This document shows, in pieces, positions 128 to 29,265 of a stretch of DNA of 29,265 nt. The stretch covers positions 1-29,265 of the IMG/VR virus record IMGVR_UViG_3300021963_000491; one strand, 5' to 3'. Numbering within the stretch: the stretch's first letter is position 1; each line of letters starts with the position of its first letter. Source of the stretch: a virus. Made by a program: the position numbers and the translations under genes. The notes under the pieces were generated by a model. That model saw nothing but the letters and a program-made list of their open reading frames with translations, did not search any database and had not been told where the DNA came from.

Positions 128-204
128 AGCATTGGTGTATTGCAAGTGTAGTCATTGGTTACTGAGCTTTGACTTACTCAGGAATAGTGCTGCTGTCATA
201 TCTT

Positions 205-248
205 AAAACAATAAAACCCCAAAGAACGTATGCGCCCGTTCAGAGGGG
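205..248 (-). terminator. Intrinsic terminator-like hairpin ending the sigma-factor operon
   Basis: On the minus strand CCCC, a UCU side, GAACG, an 8-nt loop (GGCGCAUA), CGUUC, a UUU side and GGGG form a stem with a symmetric 3x3 internal loop. UUUUAUUGUUUU follows immediately. It lies about 100 nt past the stop of the 63-aa gene, the last gene of the 1886-346 operon. The U tract makes termination the best reading. The internal loop weakens the stem. Confidence 0.6.
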
Positions 249-301
249 AATTATTAAACCTTAAATCAATTCTATGTCTAACAGTAATCTTGCGCATGAG
301 A

Positions 302-309
302 CAAATATA
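302..309 (-). promoter_or_regulatory. Possible -7 box without a matching -33 box
   Basis: The minus strand reads TATATTTG, a full match to the Bacteroidetes -7 element TAnnTTTG. No TTG lies 19-21 nt upstream, so this is only half a promoter. If used, transcription would start near 296 and meet the hairpin at 205-248 after about 90 nt. Confidence 0.25.
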
Positions 310-537: not shown

Positions 538-1064
538 AGTTTTTTTCTTTTAGCTCTTCGTTTTTTAGGTTTAGGCTCAGGAGTGAGCTCTAAGTTAGTT
601 AATTCAGTTAATGCTTGAGCTGATTCTACTTTAGCCAAGTCTCCTTCTAACTGCTTCTCTAACTTAGTTAGCAGCTCATTCATGCAGGGAGTACAAGATG
701 TGAAGCTCTTACCGTCTCTGATTCCTAAATACTCTCTTCTCAGCTTAAAGAGCTTAGCCATCTCTCCAGGTGCTAACCTTCCGCGCTTTCTAATCTCTCT
801 GATATGCTCAAGCGTTGGCATCTTCCAATCTTTTTCCTCTAAGATGGGCCATAACTTAGCTGGGCAGTCAGTAGCTGCATAGCTTGCTAAGTGATCTACC
901 GGGCAGCCGCAAGGCTTAAAGGTTACCTCTCCAATAGTGTGAGGTCTCTTAAATGGATTAATTGCATTTACAGGAGGCCCACAAGTGCCGAACTGCTTGT
1001 TATAGACAGGGCATTCTTTGCACACCTTAACGCGTGCTTCGAAGTCAGTGCTGTTTATCATCAT
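534..1064 (-). CDS. Cys-rich, probably zinc-binding phage protein (176 aa)
   Basis: The molecular role is unknown. The N-terminal half has paired cysteines: CKECP near residue 15, C28, CGCP near 52, a Cys in DCPAKLW near 67, and later CTPC near 124. This pattern suggests one or two structural zinc sites. The middle is helical and charged. The C-terminus is a lysine/arginine tail (KPKKRRAKRKKL) that could touch nucleic acid. The start overlaps the sigma-factor stop by 4 bp. Coupling to a sigma factor and a nuclease suggests a role in late transcription or DNA handling, but this is inference from position. Two consecutive Met codons leave the exact start open by one residue. Confidence 0.75.
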   Translation of the reverse strand: MMINSTDFEARVKVCKECPVYNKQFGTCGPPVNAINPFKRPHTIGEVTFKPCGCPVDHLASYAATDCPAKLWPILEEKDWKMPTLEHIREIRKRGRLAPGEMAKLFKLRREYLGIRDGKSFTSCTPCMNELLTKLEKQLEGDLAKVESAQALTELTNLELTPEPKPKKRRAKRKKL

Positions 1065-1561
1065 ATCTGTAGTGAATTTCTAAGTGTTGTTTTAGCTTTC
1101 TTAATTGTTCTGTAAAGATAGTTCAAAGGTATACCAGTCTCTTTAGCTAATTCCTGATAGCTGAAGTCATCTAAGGCATAGAGAAAGAATAACTCTCTCT
1201 CAAAGTAGGGCAGCCTGCTGATGAAGATATCTAACTGCTCATTCTCTAATCTCATCCCTACGCTTTTGTTTACATCATCTATAATATCATCTTTAAGGTC
1301 ATTGCGTATCTTTTCGAATCTTAAACGGGTATAATTAAATGAGCTATTACTACAGCGTGCAGAGAGTCTAATAGCATTGCTCACGTAGTTATTGAGCTTA
1401 CCTCTATCGTGAATATCCTGAAGCTTATCTTTATCTGATTCCAATATCTTAAGCAGCGTATCGTGCAGCAGCTCATCGGCCAAGTCTTGACGAGTAACAG
1501 TTGCTGCTACTCTGCGCCACTCATTGTAGCATTTATTTATTTCTGAGTGATAGGTACTCAT
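1061..1561 (-). CDS. Sigma-70/ECF-like RNA polymerase sigma factor
   Basis: This is probably a phage sigma factor that redirects host RNA polymerase, most likely to late genes. The 166 aa carry a region-2-like segment (about residues 25-42, DLADELLHDTLLKILE). A region-4-like helix-turn-helix follows at about 114-160: LPYFERELFFLY, then FSYQELAKETGIPLNYLYRT and a basic helix KKAKTTLR. The length fits ECF-type factors. The gene overlaps the VRR-NUC gene by 29 bp upstream and the Cys-rich gene by 4 bp downstream. The structural operon, which starts beyond the next terminator, shows no host-type promoter, consistent with but not proof of control by this protein. Confidence 0.8.
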   Translation of the reverse strand: MSTYHSEINKCYNEWRRVAATVTRQDLADELLHDTLLKILESDKDKLQDIHDRGKLNNYVSNAIRLSARCSNSSFNYTRLRFEKIRNDLKDDIIDDVNKSVGMRLENEQLDIFISRLPYFERELFFLYALDDFSYQELAKETGIPLNYLYRTIKKAKTTLRNSLQI

Positions 1562-1886
1562 CTATTACTTGTTTAGCCTCATCGAAGCTCTTGCATGTGA
1601 CTGCATGGTAGCCGTTGTTAATTAAATTTGCTTGCCAATCTTTCTGAGATTGACTCATTACACCCTTAGCTGTTTTCATTTCTATAGCTAATCCAAAGAA
1701 TGGGCCTTGAGCGTTGTAGATAAAGATATCAGGGAAGCCTTTAACATATCCTGTTTTCTTCATCTTCACTGCCTGTTTCATAGAGGTACGAACACCACCA
1801 GCTGAAGCGCAATAAAGTAAGTTAGGATATTGTGCGTTAATGTATTTAATAACAGCCTCTTGTATTAAGGCTTCCTCATTCTTCAT
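1533..1886 (-). CDS. VRR-NUC domain nuclease
   Basis: This is a 117-aa protein consisting almost entirely of a VRR-NUC fold, a PD-(D/E)XK-type nuclease module known in phages and repair enzymes. The N-terminus has the family's E-x4-Q-x-A pattern (EEALIQEAVIKYI). GFPDIFIY near residues 50-57 supplies the catalytic Asp, and IEMKTAKG near 68-75 supplies the E-x-K pair. SQSQKDWQANL near 78-88 is the conserved Q-x-x-W helix. A role in resolving replication or packaging intermediates is likely for such stand-alone enzymes. Its promoter lies so close that the transcript may begin at or next to the start codon. No internal Met would keep the fold, so this start is needed. Confidence 0.88.
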   Translation of the reverse strand: MKNEEALIQEAVIKYINAQYPNLLYCASAGGVRTSMKQAVKMKKTGYVKGFPDIFIYNAQGPFFGLAIEMKTAKGVMSQSQKDWQANLINNGYHAVTCKSFDEAKQVIDEYLSLRNK

Positions 1887-1890
1887 GATT

Positions 1891-1922
1891 CAAAATTAGA
1901 CTATTAACTTAATCTAAATCAA
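1891..1922 (-). promoter_or_regulatory. Host-type promoter of the VRR-NUC/sigma operon
   Basis: Reading the minus strand: TTG (1922-1920), 21 nt, then TAATTTTG (1898-1891), matching the Bacteroidetes consensus TTG-N19..21-TAnnTTTG. The start codon A is at 1886, only five bases past the -7 box. The predicted transcription start is therefore at or within a base or two of the ATG, so the mRNA could be leaderless. The -33 side lies within 5 bp of the DnaA-box repeats. Confidence 0.65.
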
Positions 1923-1926
1923 CATC

Positions 1927-1950
1927 TTATTCACATAGTTATTCACATAG
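1927..1950. promoter_or_regulatory. Two tandem DnaA boxes (12-bp direct repeats)
   Basis: The plus strand reads TTATTCACATAG twice in immediate succession (1927-1938 and 1939-1950). Each copy contains TTATTCACA, a perfect match to the DnaA-box consensus TTATNCACA. The sites are 12 bp apart, so both face nearly the same side of the helix. This phage also encodes a DnaA domain IV protein (6988-7476). The site sits in the largest internal noncoding gap. Either host DnaA or the phage protein could bind here. Confidence 0.75.
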
Positions 1951-2184
1951 GATTAAGCGCCATATCTTTGGCTCAAGAATTTGCTTTTGGTTTAGCAATG
2001 ATTATTGATTTCTGAGATAGGCTTGCAAACGTGCAGGCCTATTTTAGTTTTATAGCCTTATGCGTATAATTTTTAGAAAAATTCATGCAAGTAATTCGGC
2101 TGTGCTCCGAATTGATATAGATTATTTTACACAAAATGCATATTAAAGTGTGTAATATCCCTCATAAAGCACTTTTAAGTACGA

Positions 2185-2208
2185 TAAAGTGTGCTAAATA
2201 ACACTTTA
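2185..2208 (-). terminator. Hairpin just past the large terminase gene
   Basis: A perfect 8-bp inverted repeat, TAAAGTGT/ACACTTTA, with an 8-nt loop, begins three bases past the terminase stop codon. No U tract follows on the minus strand, so termination would be weak. Related copies of the half-site lie at about 2144-2155 and 2164-2177. A repressor operator or an origin-associated element is therefore an alternative. Confidence 0.4.
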
Positions 2209-2210
2209 CG

Positions 2211-5569: not shown

Positions 5570-6309
5570 GATTTCTCTTTGTTAATTTGTTTAATAATAT
5601 CAATATAAACTATTCTGCTTAACTCTATCTTCTTAGCATTAATGAAATCCTGCTCAGTGCCTTCATTGCGAAGCTTGTTAGCATCCTTCCATCTTTGCGC
5701 TATGCGCTGCTCTGCTAAGTCATCCATGCGCTCCCAAACTTCAGGCATCCAATCAGACTTTTTATAAATGCCTTGGCGAAATAGGCGCTGGCAGTTGTAA
5801 GGTGCAGATATCTCTACCCATGTTTGCTTGCCATTTTTGTAGCGCTCAGCATCAGCATGCAAATCATCTATAGGATTAGTAGGAGTGTATTCTCTTGGCT
5901 CAGCTTCAGGCAAGATAAGCGCTTTATTCAGCTCTCGCCATGTCTTAGCCTTGTATTCTTCGTAGCGTTTAAACACATCAGCCATAAATGAGATACTGAA
6001 TAAGTTATAAGCATCTACCCTATCCCATTCCTTACCCACAGCATTTAATAAAAAGGCATTCTGCCAATCCTTAATACTTGTAGTCCGATAAGTATTTTGT
6101 GTAAGTTGTTGTAATAGAGTTACTTCTATGTCTGAAGGTAAAGCCTTAATAGAATTGATTACAGCAGCTTGAGCAATGAGCTCTCTAAACTCCTTTTCAA
6201 ATAATGAGTGAAGCTTAGGTGAGTTAATAGCCTCTACCATGTTAATCTCTTCAGCGCTTAGTGAACGACTGAAGCTCTGATGTGCTAATGCGCCCAATCT
6301 TTTGCTCAT
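5566..6309 (-). CDS. Replication-block protein of unknown function (247 aa)
   Basis: This looks like a conserved Bacteroidetes-phage type found in replication modules, although I cannot name a family with certainty. It is largely helical. The core LTQNTYRTTSIKDWQNAFLL (about residues 69-88), then LNAVGKEWDR and an aromatic segment YNLFSISFMADVFKRY, is the most distinctive part. A basic/polar C-terminal third follows. There is no Walker motif, so it is not a helicase on its own. A primosome-assembly or DNA-binding role would fit its place beside the DnaD/O-like 107-aa protein. The start at 6309 overlaps that gene by 59 bp. Confidence 0.65.
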   Translation of the reverse strand: MSKRLGALAHQSFSRSLSAEEINMVEAINSPKLHSLFEKEFRELIAQAAVINSIKALPSDIEVTLLQQLTQNTYRTTSIKDWQNAFLLNAVGKEWDRVDAYNLFSISFMADVFKRYEEYKAKTWRELNKALILPEAEPREYTPTNPIDDLHADAERYKNGKQTWVEISAPYNCQRLFRQGIYKKSDWMPEVWERMDDLAEQRIAQRWKDANKLRNEGTEQDFINAKKIELSRIVYIDIIKQINKEKS

Positions 6310-6574
6310 CTTGTTGTGATTTAGATTCGTTAATACTACGTGCTTTCCACTGATCCGCGGCTGCTCGCCAGCTCTTCATGGAATTTCTGCCTACCTTCCA
6401 TCCATTAGACTCGTAGAATGTGTAAAAGCGCTTAGCTAATACTACATCTTGCGTATAATCTATGATGTCTGCAAGTGATGGAGGGGTGAATTTAGTAGAG
6501 GCTGCACGCTTTGTTTCAAGCGCTCGCACCCTCTCTTCAAGCGCTTCAATGCGCTTTAATAAGATTGTTGTCAT
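6251..6574 (-). CDS. Replication-associated protein with O/DnaD-like C-terminal motif (107 aa)
   Basis: The N-terminus is a short coiled coil (KRIEALEERVRALETK, about residues 7-22). Residues 29-78 read FTPPSLADIIDYTQDVVLAK, then RFYTFYESNGWKVG and MKSWRAAADQWKAR. The pattern F-x-PP-S plus FY-x-YESNGWKVG plus M-x-W-x-AA-x-x-W is the terminal motif I know from phage replication initiators and DnaD-like proteins of Firmicutes and Bacteroidetes. Here it stands almost alone, without the usual winged-helix N-terminal domain. It probably takes part in initiation or helicase recruitment. It overlaps the 247-aa gene by 59 bp. Confidence 0.6.
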   Translation of the reverse strand: MTTILLKRIEALEERVRALETKRAASTKFTPPSLADIIDYTQDVVLAKRFYTFYESNGWKVGRNSMKSWRAAADQWKARSINESKSQQDEQKIGRISTSELQSFTKR

Positions 6575-6588
6575 TTGGTTTAAGATTA

Positions 6589-6972
6589 TTAATTATTCAA
6601 CAAATATAGAAGAAATCTCTTCCACCATGGCAGTGCTACTGCTTTTTTTATTGGCTGAGTCTTAGGCATATTGACTAAACCAAGCATATCAGTATCAGGT
6701 TTTGATGCCTGAATATCACTGTAGTATTTATTCTTTGCATCAATAAATTGCTTGAACTTATCTTGTCTTAAATGCTTTACTGCCTCCCATTCGCGTGTTC
6801 CTACTTTCTTAATGATGCCTACCTCTCTCATGATTTGCAGGTATTGCTTACCCATTCTTTCATGCTTGAGAGCGGCGCTTGGTGTCATGCCAGCATTGAC
6901 TAAAACACACACGCTTTTTACTCTCTCTATTGTTACCTTACCGGTATCGTACGTTAAACTTAATTGCTTCAT
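6589..6972 (-). CDS. Putative HTH-type small protein (127 aa)
   Basis: The family is not recognised. The N-terminal half (TIERVKSVCVLVNAGMTPSA, about residues 14-33, then ALKHERMGKQYLQIMREVGI) looks like a helical, possibly winged-helix DNA-binding fold that could recognise a site. Residues 70-85 form a basic helix. The C-terminus is hydrophobic and aromatic (LPWWKRFLLYLLNN), which could attach it peripherally to the membrane. It follows the DnaA-like gene after a 15-bp gap. Confidence 0.6.
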   Translation of the reverse strand: MKQLSLTYDTGKVTIERVKSVCVLVNAGMTPSAALKHERMGKQYLQIMREVGIIKKVGTREWEAVKHLRQDKFKQFIDAKNKYYSDIQASKPDTDMLGLVNMPKTQPIKKAVALPWWKRFLLYLLNN

Positions 6973-6987
6973 GGTTTAGTGATTTGA

Positions 6988-7476
6988 TTATTGAATTAAT
7001 TTATAAAACACTTTATTCAGATGCTCGTTATTCAGATGGCGAAGAATCTCCTCTACCTTTTCTCTATAAACTCTATCAGTCTGAATCATATTATCCACGT
7101 GGCTAATCGCGTAAAGGATTGTAGAATGATCTCTAAGGAATATAGCACCGATGTTATGCAAGCTCATGCTGGTACCATGTCTAATAACCCACATGCATAT
7201 CTGCCTGATATCATTTACCTCTCTTACTCGGCTTCTGCCTTTTAAGTTAGGCCAATCTGTGTAGCCTTTATCTAAAAGAATCTCAAGCATTCTATTAGCC
7301 TTAGCCTCATTCATGCTCTCGGCTATTCCATTTATAGACTTCCACTTTAGCTCAGGAATGTTACTGTTGTTCACAGCTCTTACCAGGTTATCTATTCGTC
7401 TACGTGCATTCTGCTGCATCTCAGCAGGAATCAAAAGCAGGATATCTGCTATTTTTCTATCTATTACTTTACTCAT
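6988..7476 (-). CDS. DnaA domain IV-like DNA-binding protein
   Basis: This 162-aa protein resembles only the C-terminal DNA-binding domain of DnaA, with no AAA+ ATPase part. Residues about 80-148 match domain IV. The region begins GRSRVREVNDIRQICMWVIR, continues with SLHNIGAIFLRDHSTILYA, and ends with a final helix EKVEEILRHL. RDHSTILYA corresponds to the DnaA signature GGRDHTTVLHA, which reads DnaA boxes. The N-terminal 75 aa are helical and unfamiliar. It probably binds DnaA-box-like sites, possibly the tandem pair at 1927-1950, to start phage replication or to compete with host DnaA. It overlaps the upstream HTH gene by 4 bp. Confidence 0.82.
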   Translation of the reverse strand: MSKVIDRKIADILLLIPAEMQQNARRRIDNLVRAVNNSNIPELKWKSINGIAESMNEAKANRMLEILLDKGYTDWPNLKGRSRVREVNDIRQICMWVIRHGTSMSLHNIGAIFLRDHSTILYAISHVDNMIQTDRVYREKVEEILRHLNNEHLNKVFYKLIQ

Positions 7477-7691
7477 TTGCTATCCTTCATTAGTTCTAAA
7501 ATGTATGGTATCTCTTCCTCAGTGATATTAGCAAGCTTACCTATGTGACTAACCTTCATAGTGCGAGGCTGCTTAATATACTTTTGAGCTGTTGGATAAC
7601 TCACCTCAAGCACTTCAGCGAACTGAGCCACAGTCACAAAGTGACTGCGAACCCAGCTGTGAAATGGAGTGAGCTTAGAATGGCATTTCAT
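7473..7691 (-). CDS. Small helix-turn-helix regulator (72 aa)
   Basis: I start this at 7691 (MKCHSKLTPFHSW). A start five codons earlier (7706) is possible but overlaps the SSB-like gene more. FVTVAQFAEVLEVSYPTAQK is a typical helix-turn-helix, followed by YIKQPRTMKVSHIGKLANIT and a closing helix, as in Cro-like phage regulators. It likely binds an operator in the phage genome, perhaps near 9450-9530, but no matching operator can be assigned. The start overlaps the SSB-like stop by 17 bp and the stop overlaps the DnaA-like start by 4 bp. Confidence 0.68.
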   Translation of the reverse strand: MKCHSKLTPFHSWVRSHFVTVAQFAEVLEVSYPTAQKYIKQPRTMKVSHIGKLANITEEEIPYILELMKDSK

Positions 7692-8292
7692 CGTCGCTTG
7701 CTTCATCTAATTTAGTATTAATTGGTGAACTAACTTTAACATCTTCCTCTTTAAGCCATGCTAAGAATATCTCAGCAGCCTCTAAAACCTCACTCGGCTT
7801 TGCCCCTCTCTTATCGCAAAAAACTACAGCATTATTTAGCGCTACTGATCTGCTGATAGAATTCTGCACTTCAGGTGATTCTTTGCGCGGAGTGTATGCT
7901 GATTGCACTATGCCTTTCCCTGCTCCATTAAATGGATTAGGATTCTGCAGCTTAAAGTTGGTAGTCTTTCTGCCTGTTGGTCCAGTGCGCTCTTCACTTG
8001 TGTAGTGAATGGTAGCACCTACTGCAATCTTTGGGCTCTGCATATCCTTAACTCCTACCTGACCTACTTCGCCATTCTCTAATACAATATCAAAATAGTG
8101 AATATCACCATTTGAGCTGTTCCATGTTCTAACGAATTTCTGACTTTTAACGATTCCTTGATTCATAACTGTTTGTTTTATTTTATTTTGATTAATATAC
8201 GTACTTAACTTTTCTGCTAACTTTTCTTCCATCTCATCCCAATCAATTGATGGCTTGAGCTTGTTCCAATCAGGCTCTCTATTGTAGCTCAT
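7675..8292 (-). CDS. SSB-like single-strand DNA-binding protein
   Basis: I choose the start at 8292 (MSYNREPDW), overlapping the 55-aa gene by 14 bp. The upstream 19 codons lack support. The middle of the 205-aa product (about residues 50-120) is beta-rich with aromatic and basic residues (FVRTWNSSNGDIHYFDIVLE, then GATIHYTSEE and KTTNFKLQNPNPF), consistent with an OB fold. The strongest sign is the C-terminus, an acidic tail ending DDEMPF. It matches the DDDIPF tip by which bacterial and phage SSBs recruit partner proteins. It would coat single-stranded DNA during replication. The call rests on layout and tail, not on a full domain match. Confidence 0.7.
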   Translation of the reverse strand: MSYNREPDWNKLKPSIDWDEMEEKLAEKLSTYINQNKIKQTVMNQGIVKSQKFVRTWNSSNGDIHYFDIVLENGEVGQVGVKDMQSPKIAVGATIHYTSEERTGPTGRKTTNFKLQNPNPFNGAGKGIVQSAYTPRKESPEVQNSISRSVALNNAVVFCDKRGAKPSEVLEAAEIFLAWLKEEDVKVSSPINTKLDEASDDEMPF

Positions 8293-8446
8293 GGGGATTA
8301 TTGATGAAGTGCGCTCTCCAATTTTCGTAGGCAGTTGTGCCTTTAGCATATTGAAGATGCTGTATCATTTCATTGTAGCTCAGTGACTCTCCCGACACCG
8401 AGCTCTGCACGCAGATGAAGCGGCTTTTAGCTCTTTCAGATAACAT
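8279..8446 (-). CDS. Small early protein (55 aa)
   Basis: The longest frame here begins at 8539, but I start at 8446 (MLSERAKSRF) because the upstream 31 codons lie inside the 76-aa gene. That leaves 55 aa, largely helical and polar, ending YENWRAHFINNPHELQ. The start overlaps the previous gene by 11 bp and the stop overlaps the SSB-like gene by 14 bp, the tight packing seen in the rest of the operon. The function is unknown. Confidence 0.55.
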   Translation of the reverse strand: MLSERAKSRFICVQSSVSGESLSYNEMIQHLQYAKGTTAYENWRAHFINNPHELQ

Positions 8447-8666
8447 AGCGGTCAGACATAAAATAATCGTGTACGTTGTTCTCATCTTGGCTTTCGAACT
8501 GGTAGAGAAAAGTGCCGTCATCAGGCAACACCTCACCATGCTTTTTAGCTGTTGAGAAATCAGTTAGTGAATAGGAGTGAGCTGATGTGTACAGTCTCCA
8601 TGTGCAAGCTTCGGCATCCCACCGACTTACGATTACCCTTCCGGTAATTTGATTTGGTTTATTCAT
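8436..8666 (-). CDS. Small early protein (76 aa)
   Basis: The family is unrecognised. It is a soluble, beta-rich sequence (ITGRVIVSRWDAEACTWRLY near residues 7-26) with an acidic, polar C-terminal half (FESQDENNVHDYFMSDRYVI). It has no membrane segment and no obvious catalytic motif. It sits 20 bp after the 76-aa gene at 8687 and overlaps the 55-aa gene by 11 bp. It is probably one of several small early host-takeover or accessory proteins. Confidence 0.6.
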   Translation of the reverse strand: MNKPNQITGRVIVSRWDAEACTWRLYTSAHSYSLTDFSTAKKHGEVLPDDGTFLYQFESQDENNVHDYFMSDRYVI

Positions 8667-8686
8667 GATTATTAATTTTTGCTAAT

Positions 8687-28872: not shown

Positions 28873-29022
28873 TTACGATCCACAATATAGGCAAGCCTCA
28901 TCCTCTCCACCCTCACCTGCATTTAAGATGCGCTCACATTCTTTATCTACTTGTTCTTCACTCCAGTTAGGATTAAACATTTTCACTTGTGCCTTCAAAA
29001 AGTTATAGCTATTGTCACTCAT
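28873..29022 (-). CDS. Small protein with C-terminal Cys pair, first gene of the structural operon (49 aa)
   Basis: A 49-aa frame starts MSDNSYNFLKAQVKMFNPNW, continues with an acidic helix (SEEQVDKECERILNAGEGGE) and ends ACLYCGS. Codon use and the folded look of the sequence support a real gene. It is the first frame after the AT-rich repeat region and 41 bp before the 117-aa gene. The C-x-x-C end might bind a metal or take part in redox chemistry, but nothing more can be said. Confidence 0.65.
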   Translation of the reverse strand: MSDNSYNFLKAQVKMFNPNWSEEQVDKECERILNAGEGGEDEACLYCGS

Positions 29023-29138: not shown

Positions 29139-29265
29139 AGTTAATTAACATCAACAAAAGAAAAGAAAGAAAAAGAAAAAAGGTAAAAAGAAAAAGAAAG
29201 AAAAGAAAAAGCTCCCCCAAGAAAAACAAACTGCCTCACTCTTAAAAGAGTAGTTGCTCGTTCCA
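29139..29265. repeat. 127-bp direct repeat, right copy (contig-end overlap)
   Basis: This is an exact copy of bases 1-127. Joining the two copies makes the intergenic junction continuous from 345 down through 1/29139 to 29023, with no gene interrupted. That supports a circular or circularly permuted molecule. Confidence 0.93.

Follow-up and report, generated by a model that had tools for sequence, protein, structure and literature searches.

A predicted divergent control region with tandem DnaA boxes and a putative antisense small RNA in a probable flavobacterial phage

Promoter boxes on both sides of a DnaA-box pair

The window, the whole stretch of DNA analysed here, is an IMG/VR virus record of 29,265 nt. 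Its two ends share a 127-bp repeat, by which the window closes to a circle of 29,138 bp, and all of its inferred genes are carried on the minus strand. The large terminase has its best matches in Flavobacterium phage 11b (47%) and Cellulophaga phage phi10:1 (45%), from which we infer that the host is probably a flavobacterium. A strongly biased polypurine/polypyrimidine tract at 1-75 and 29139-29213 is kept in the junction gap of relatives. An unlisted short open reading frame of about 50 aa (28874-29021, minus strand), which starts MSDNSYNFLKAQVKMF and falls below the ORF cut-off, is kept in relatives as well.

The noncoding region at 1887-2210 had been picked out by a sequence-only reading as a candidate replication origin filling the largest internal noncoding gap. 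Once the circle is closed by the 127-bp repeat, however, the gap at 29022-345, which is partly conserved, turns out to be larger. The first part of the region and the genes beside it hold the following features.

1061..1561, minus strand: gene for an ECF-type sigma factor, second behind the putative promoter P_L (TIGR02937, 45.5 bits, cut-off 42.9)
1533..1886, minus strand: gene for a VRR-NUC nuclease, first behind P_L (PF08774, E 7e-9)
1891..1898, minus strand: −7 box of P_L, TAATTTTG, 4 nt before the VRR-NUC ATG (5 nt in many relatives)
1927..1935, plus strand: DnaA box A, TTATTCACA, an exact match, with two alleles in relatives
1939..1947, plus strand: DnaA box B, TTATTCACA, an exact match, covering the −33 zone of the putative promoter P_R
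1963..1970, plus strand: −7 box of P_R, TATCTTTG (TATATTTG in many relatives), preceding a predicted small RNA

Relatives were gathered by a protein search with the neighbouring VRR-NUC gene, which gave 80 contigs, and 71 distinct copies of the element were aligned. Because the pattern used to extract the alignment contained TAATTTTG, the conservation of TAATTTTG is to be judged from the unbiased protein-search set, and there the P_L −7 box was found in all 80 upstream regions. The whole cassette is kept in 79/79 complete upstream regions of this set, the 80th contig being incomplete at that place. The −7 box of F. johnsoniae reads TAHHTTTG, with transcription beginning 4-5 nt beyond it (PMC6847099). 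The −7 boxes and the start-site spacing in the element agree with this rule, and the distance of 4-5 nt between TAATTTTG and the ATG predicts a leaderless VRR-NUC mRNA that starts at its AUG. What is conserved around the DnaA boxes is the pair of −7 promoter boxes, together with an intrinsic terminator and the body of a predicted small RNA whose targets are conserved too. Judged from these sequences, the region appears to be a conserved divergent control region, with P_L and P_R both as predicted promoters.

Boxes A and B form a perfect 2 x 12-bp tandem repeat, and the perfect DnaA-box match that had been noticed in each 12-mer is indeed present. Measured from the P_L and P_R starts, box A is centred at about −45 and −44 and box B at about −57 and −32, respectively. 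The boxes sit between the two putative promoters, a position where a transcription factor would act. Box B reads TTAT[T/G]CACA in 71/71 distinct elements, the sole variable site being the free N (fifth) position of the DnaA consensus. Box A takes the form TTATTCACA in 42 of the distinct elements and TTGTTAACA in 29. Since the same combination of a weak and a strong box also occurs in bacterial contigs, such as those of Massilia, both alleles of box A look like DnaA sites. The two alleles are separated by two linked substitutions with no intermediates, and a search for a phage protein that tracks the split found no clear partner.

Over the whole window, TTATNCACA was not enriched relative to shuffled sequence (3 found vs 1.59 expected; at least 3 in 18/100 shuffles). 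The clustering of the boxes did hold up, as a same-strand pair within 30 nt arose in just 1/300 order-3 simulated genomes, and we regard the conservation of the pair as decisive. A recurrent TTATTCACA found about 665 bp away in many relatives was set aside; by its distance it lies inside the sigma gene and probably reflects codon choice.

A predicted small RNA and three complementary gene starts

The segment that follows the P_R −7 box carries the features of a small structured RNA, as listed below.

1975..2050, plus strand: predicted small RNA of about 76 nt (75-85 nt in relatives), from fold, covariation and conservation
1981..1998, plus strand: hairpin 1 of the small RNA, with a near-invariant loop, TGGTTTA, that pairs with the target sequence TAAACCA
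1999..2010, plus strand: conserved unpaired segment TGATTATTGATT, in which GATTATT pairs with the target sequence AATAATC
2012..2051, plus strand: intrinsic terminator with a 16-bp stem, an AACG-type loop and the T tract TTTTAGTTTT

At the sequence level, the predicted RNA thus has a promoter and a terminator of its own, and it is kept in 55 distinct versions. Its structure is conserved, as judged from a fold z of −5.3 for the segment, double substitutions at 4 pairs of the terminator, and covariation in hairpin 1, where 13 distinct stems give a pairing score of 37 vs 18.4 for shuffled sequences and 0/5000 shuffles reach the observed score. No Rfam family matched above its gathering score in the window. 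Two of the three hairpins previously proposed here were recovered: that at 2017-2042 was found as 2012-2047 and is the small-RNA terminator, and that at 2185-2208 was found as 2174-2219. The third, at 2093-2113, lies in the stretch from the terminator to the terminase stop, which is hypervariable, and was not upheld.

Another conserved noncoding stretch was seen in the junction gap (202-309, minus strand). It has a TATATTTG −7 box (309-302) followed by about 95 nt and ends in a CCCC..GGGG hairpin and TTTTATTGTTTT. It folds weakly (z −1.5), and is possibly a second small RNA.

Three genes, X (8666), Z (6972) and Y (6574), carry around their starts sequence complementary to the two invariant segments of the predicted small RNA.

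8655..8673, minus strand: target at the start of gene X (8436-8666), AATAATC-ATGAATAAACCA
6972..6992, minus strand: target at the start of gene Z (6589-6972), overlapping the stop codon of the gene for a DnaA domain-IV protein
6576..6590, minus strand: target in the leader of gene Y (6251-6574)
6601..6608, minus strand: gene Y's own −7 box, TATATTTG, 31-34 nt before Y in 26/26 genomes

The predicted leader of gene Y is about 20 nt long and consists almost wholly of the small-RNA target. Outside the element, the motif AATAATC..TAAACCA occurs 31 times on the gene strand and 0 times in reverse among the 26 genomes, compared with 0.0 in Markov shuffles. By inspection, with the starts compared with those of orthologs, the matches sit at the start codons of X, Z and Y. 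Taken alone, raw duplex energies across the genome failed to pick out these targets; the exact motif and the start-site ranking did, X, Z and Y being the top three of 40 gene starts in mean duplex energy. Their lead persists when the folding of both partners is charged, with other genes sometimes higher in single genomes. Complementarity between the RNA and its targets therefore exceeds chance by both motif counts and duplex rankings. Gene Z is absent from 4/26 genomes, and the strict motif is missing at some starts. A loop-variant RNA (L012) retains the standard targets, and, both segments being nearly invariant, RNA and target show few compensatory changes. Neither the target motif nor the element was found in the control phages, Flavobacterium phage 11b and Cellulophaga phi10:1. 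As predictions from sequence, the small RNA and its targets are well supported.

Could the motif act without the RNA? AATAATC..TAAACCA might be a DNA operator or a shared translation-enhancing leader that is not paired with the small RNA. Leaders in Bacteroidota are A-rich with A at −3 (PMC6847099), and in genes Y and Z TAAACCA stands beside the ATG. In gene X, however, the ATG lies between the two halves of the motif and TAAACCA is coding; here AAA and CCA never vary as codons, even though other phage genes use AAG and CCT more often. The orientation bias of 31 to 0, the variable spacing of the halves, and the location of the motif's opposite strand within a structured, terminator-ended RNA also speak against an operator or leader, which we consider very unlikely. 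We prefer pairing between the small RNA and the three gene starts.

A DnaA domain-IV protein and the question of an origin

The gene whose stop codon overlaps the target of gene Z encodes the proposed binder of boxes A and B.

6988..7476, minus strand: DnaA domain-IV-only protein (DnaA-IV), 162 aa, PF08299

A profile search matched this protein to the C-terminal part of DnaA only (PF08299, residues 77-126, E 1.7e-14, 54 bits vs a gathering cut-off of 31.5), and an AAA+ ATPase domain is absent from it, in agreement with the sequence-only reading. The basic loop and the recognition helix are kept, with R83, R91, Q92, H117 and T119 invariant in 30 sequences; at residue 116 the window has D, where most relatives have H. 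An AlphaFold model built with the 30 sequences was poor (mean pLDDT 50) and for this reason was not taken into a fold search.

The suggested pairing of the tandem boxes with a headless DnaA gene was borne out in relatives. A PF08299 protein is encoded in 26/26 long element-bearing records; in the opposite direction, the element was never missing from contigs that have the DnaA-IV gene and enough downstream sequence (39/39), where it lies 4.8-6.5 kb downstream of the gene. This association is strong across contigs that all belong to one phage group and thus form, phylogenetically, one lineage. It suggests that the element and DnaA-IV work together, with DnaA-IV as the putative protein bound at the boxes. 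Alternatively, the boxes might answer to host DnaA only, in which case the switch would sense the replication state of the host and DnaA-IV would act elsewhere and might, for instance, inhibit host initiation. Box B does hold the bacterial consensus even though residue 116 of DnaA-IV varies between D and H, which speaks for the host protein. The strict co-occurrence of element and DnaA-IV is better explained by joint action of the two, although a single phage group may simply have both in its core. We regard control by host DnaA only as possible but doubtful, and keep DnaA-IV as the preferred binder.

Whether the boxes serve an origin was judged from the sequences around them. If the region were the phage replication origin, DnaA-IV or host DnaA would bind the boxes and open an AT-rich stretch, and the plus-strand RNA would be a primer or a regulator. 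Such a stretch does adjoin the boxes, and tandem boxes with the same 12-bp spacing recur in 62 bacterial contigs, in settings that resemble chromosomal oriC or the region upstream of dnaA only by eye. A polymerase or helicase of the phage's own was absent among the proteins scanned, which would fit reliance on such an origin, as would a protein (7675-8349) that ends DDEMPF, like the acidic tip of single-stranded DNA-binding proteins. Of the parts of a DnaA-dependent origin, the box cluster is present, with two tandem boxes in 71/71 elements and box A in two alleles. In the alignment of relatives, judged by eye, no conserved array of DnaA-trios (as defined in PMC8235120) was found beside the proximal box, where an unwinding element (DUE) would be expected, and the 8-9 bp next to box A are among the most variable positions. 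No GC-skew switch was found at the boxes; the skew is monotonic here, but all genes lie on one strand. DnaA-IV lacks the AAA+ domain, and conservation in the region falls on promoter boxes, a terminator, and an RNA whose targets lie at gene starts. Of the initiator/origin reading, therefore, the link between boxes and DnaA stands by co-occurrence, whereas origin function, perhaps nested in the same region, is not supported, and we hold it to be unlikely.

A proposed switch and its relation to known systems

We think it fairly probable that the region is a DnaA-box-controlled divergent early/late switch with an antisense small RNA, and not primarily an origin. The two DnaA boxes would lie between two promoters of flavobacterial type. 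From P_L, a leaderless mRNA for the VRR-NUC nuclease and the ECF sigma factor would be made, and from P_R an antisense RNA of about 76 nt that would end at the intrinsic terminator. The loop of this RNA and the adjacent unpaired segment would pair with the translation-start regions of X, Z and Y, most likely to block rather than promote their translation. The protein bound at the boxes would most likely be phage DnaA-IV, or else host DnaA, in the role of a transcription factor that activates, rather than represses, both promoters. Genes X, Y, Z and DnaA-IV are called early because they lie upstream in the gene order; DnaA-IV made early could then induce the sigma factor and the small RNA at the same time and so move the phage from early to late expression. 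In its fullest form the proposal is more tentative: a beheaded DnaA may act as a transcription factor that fires two divergent promoters from one pair of boxes, with the ECF sigma factor opening late genes and the antisense RNA closing early ones.

If true, a single pair of DnaA boxes would make up a single-site early-to-late switch. The proposal also suggests a use for stand-alone phage DnaA DNA-binding domains, which are usually labelled replication initiators. For a phage group represented by dozens of metagenome contigs, a small RNA is here predicted along with its promoter, its terminator, three conserved targets and the site that likely controls it. No description of a phage DnaA-IV regulator of this kind was found in the literature covered, which was limited. 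The single pieces are of known kinds, and their combination appears new. Bacteroidota are unmentioned in a review of phage small RNAs (PMC12197685), and small RNAs of their phages seem little described.

The predicted RNA resembles OOP of lambda, which is 77 nt long and antisense to a regulator gene of the phage; OOP's promoter, pO, has a part in the replication of the phage DNA as well (PMC12197685). Whereas OOP acts as a cis-antisense RNA on a single gene, the RNA predicted here would have three targets, distant and imperfect, at the starts of early genes, and DnaA boxes accompany its putative promoter. P22 sar is likewise a phage antisense RNA, of 68/69 nt, that lowers the synthesis of a phage protein (PMC12197685). 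It differs in coming from another phage group, in having a single target, and in being without DnaA boxes.

Cellulophaga phage phi10:1 encodes a similarly short protein, gp034 (L375 16259-16720), which is annotated as 'DnaA protein' and with PF08299 and is too short for an ATPase; phi10:1 differs in having no element or target motif, and its DnaA boxes are scattered rather than clustered. A bacterial basal origin, with DnaA boxes and DnaA-trios, is similar in its tandem boxes beside AT-rich DNA, but promoters and an RNA are found here in place of a conserved trio array or a skew switch. DnaA is established as a transcription factor in bacteria, as in the autoregulation of dnaA. Bacterial promoters under DnaA control likewise use DnaA boxes as operators; in the phage, by contrast, the candidate binder is a domain IV of the phage's own without an ATPase.
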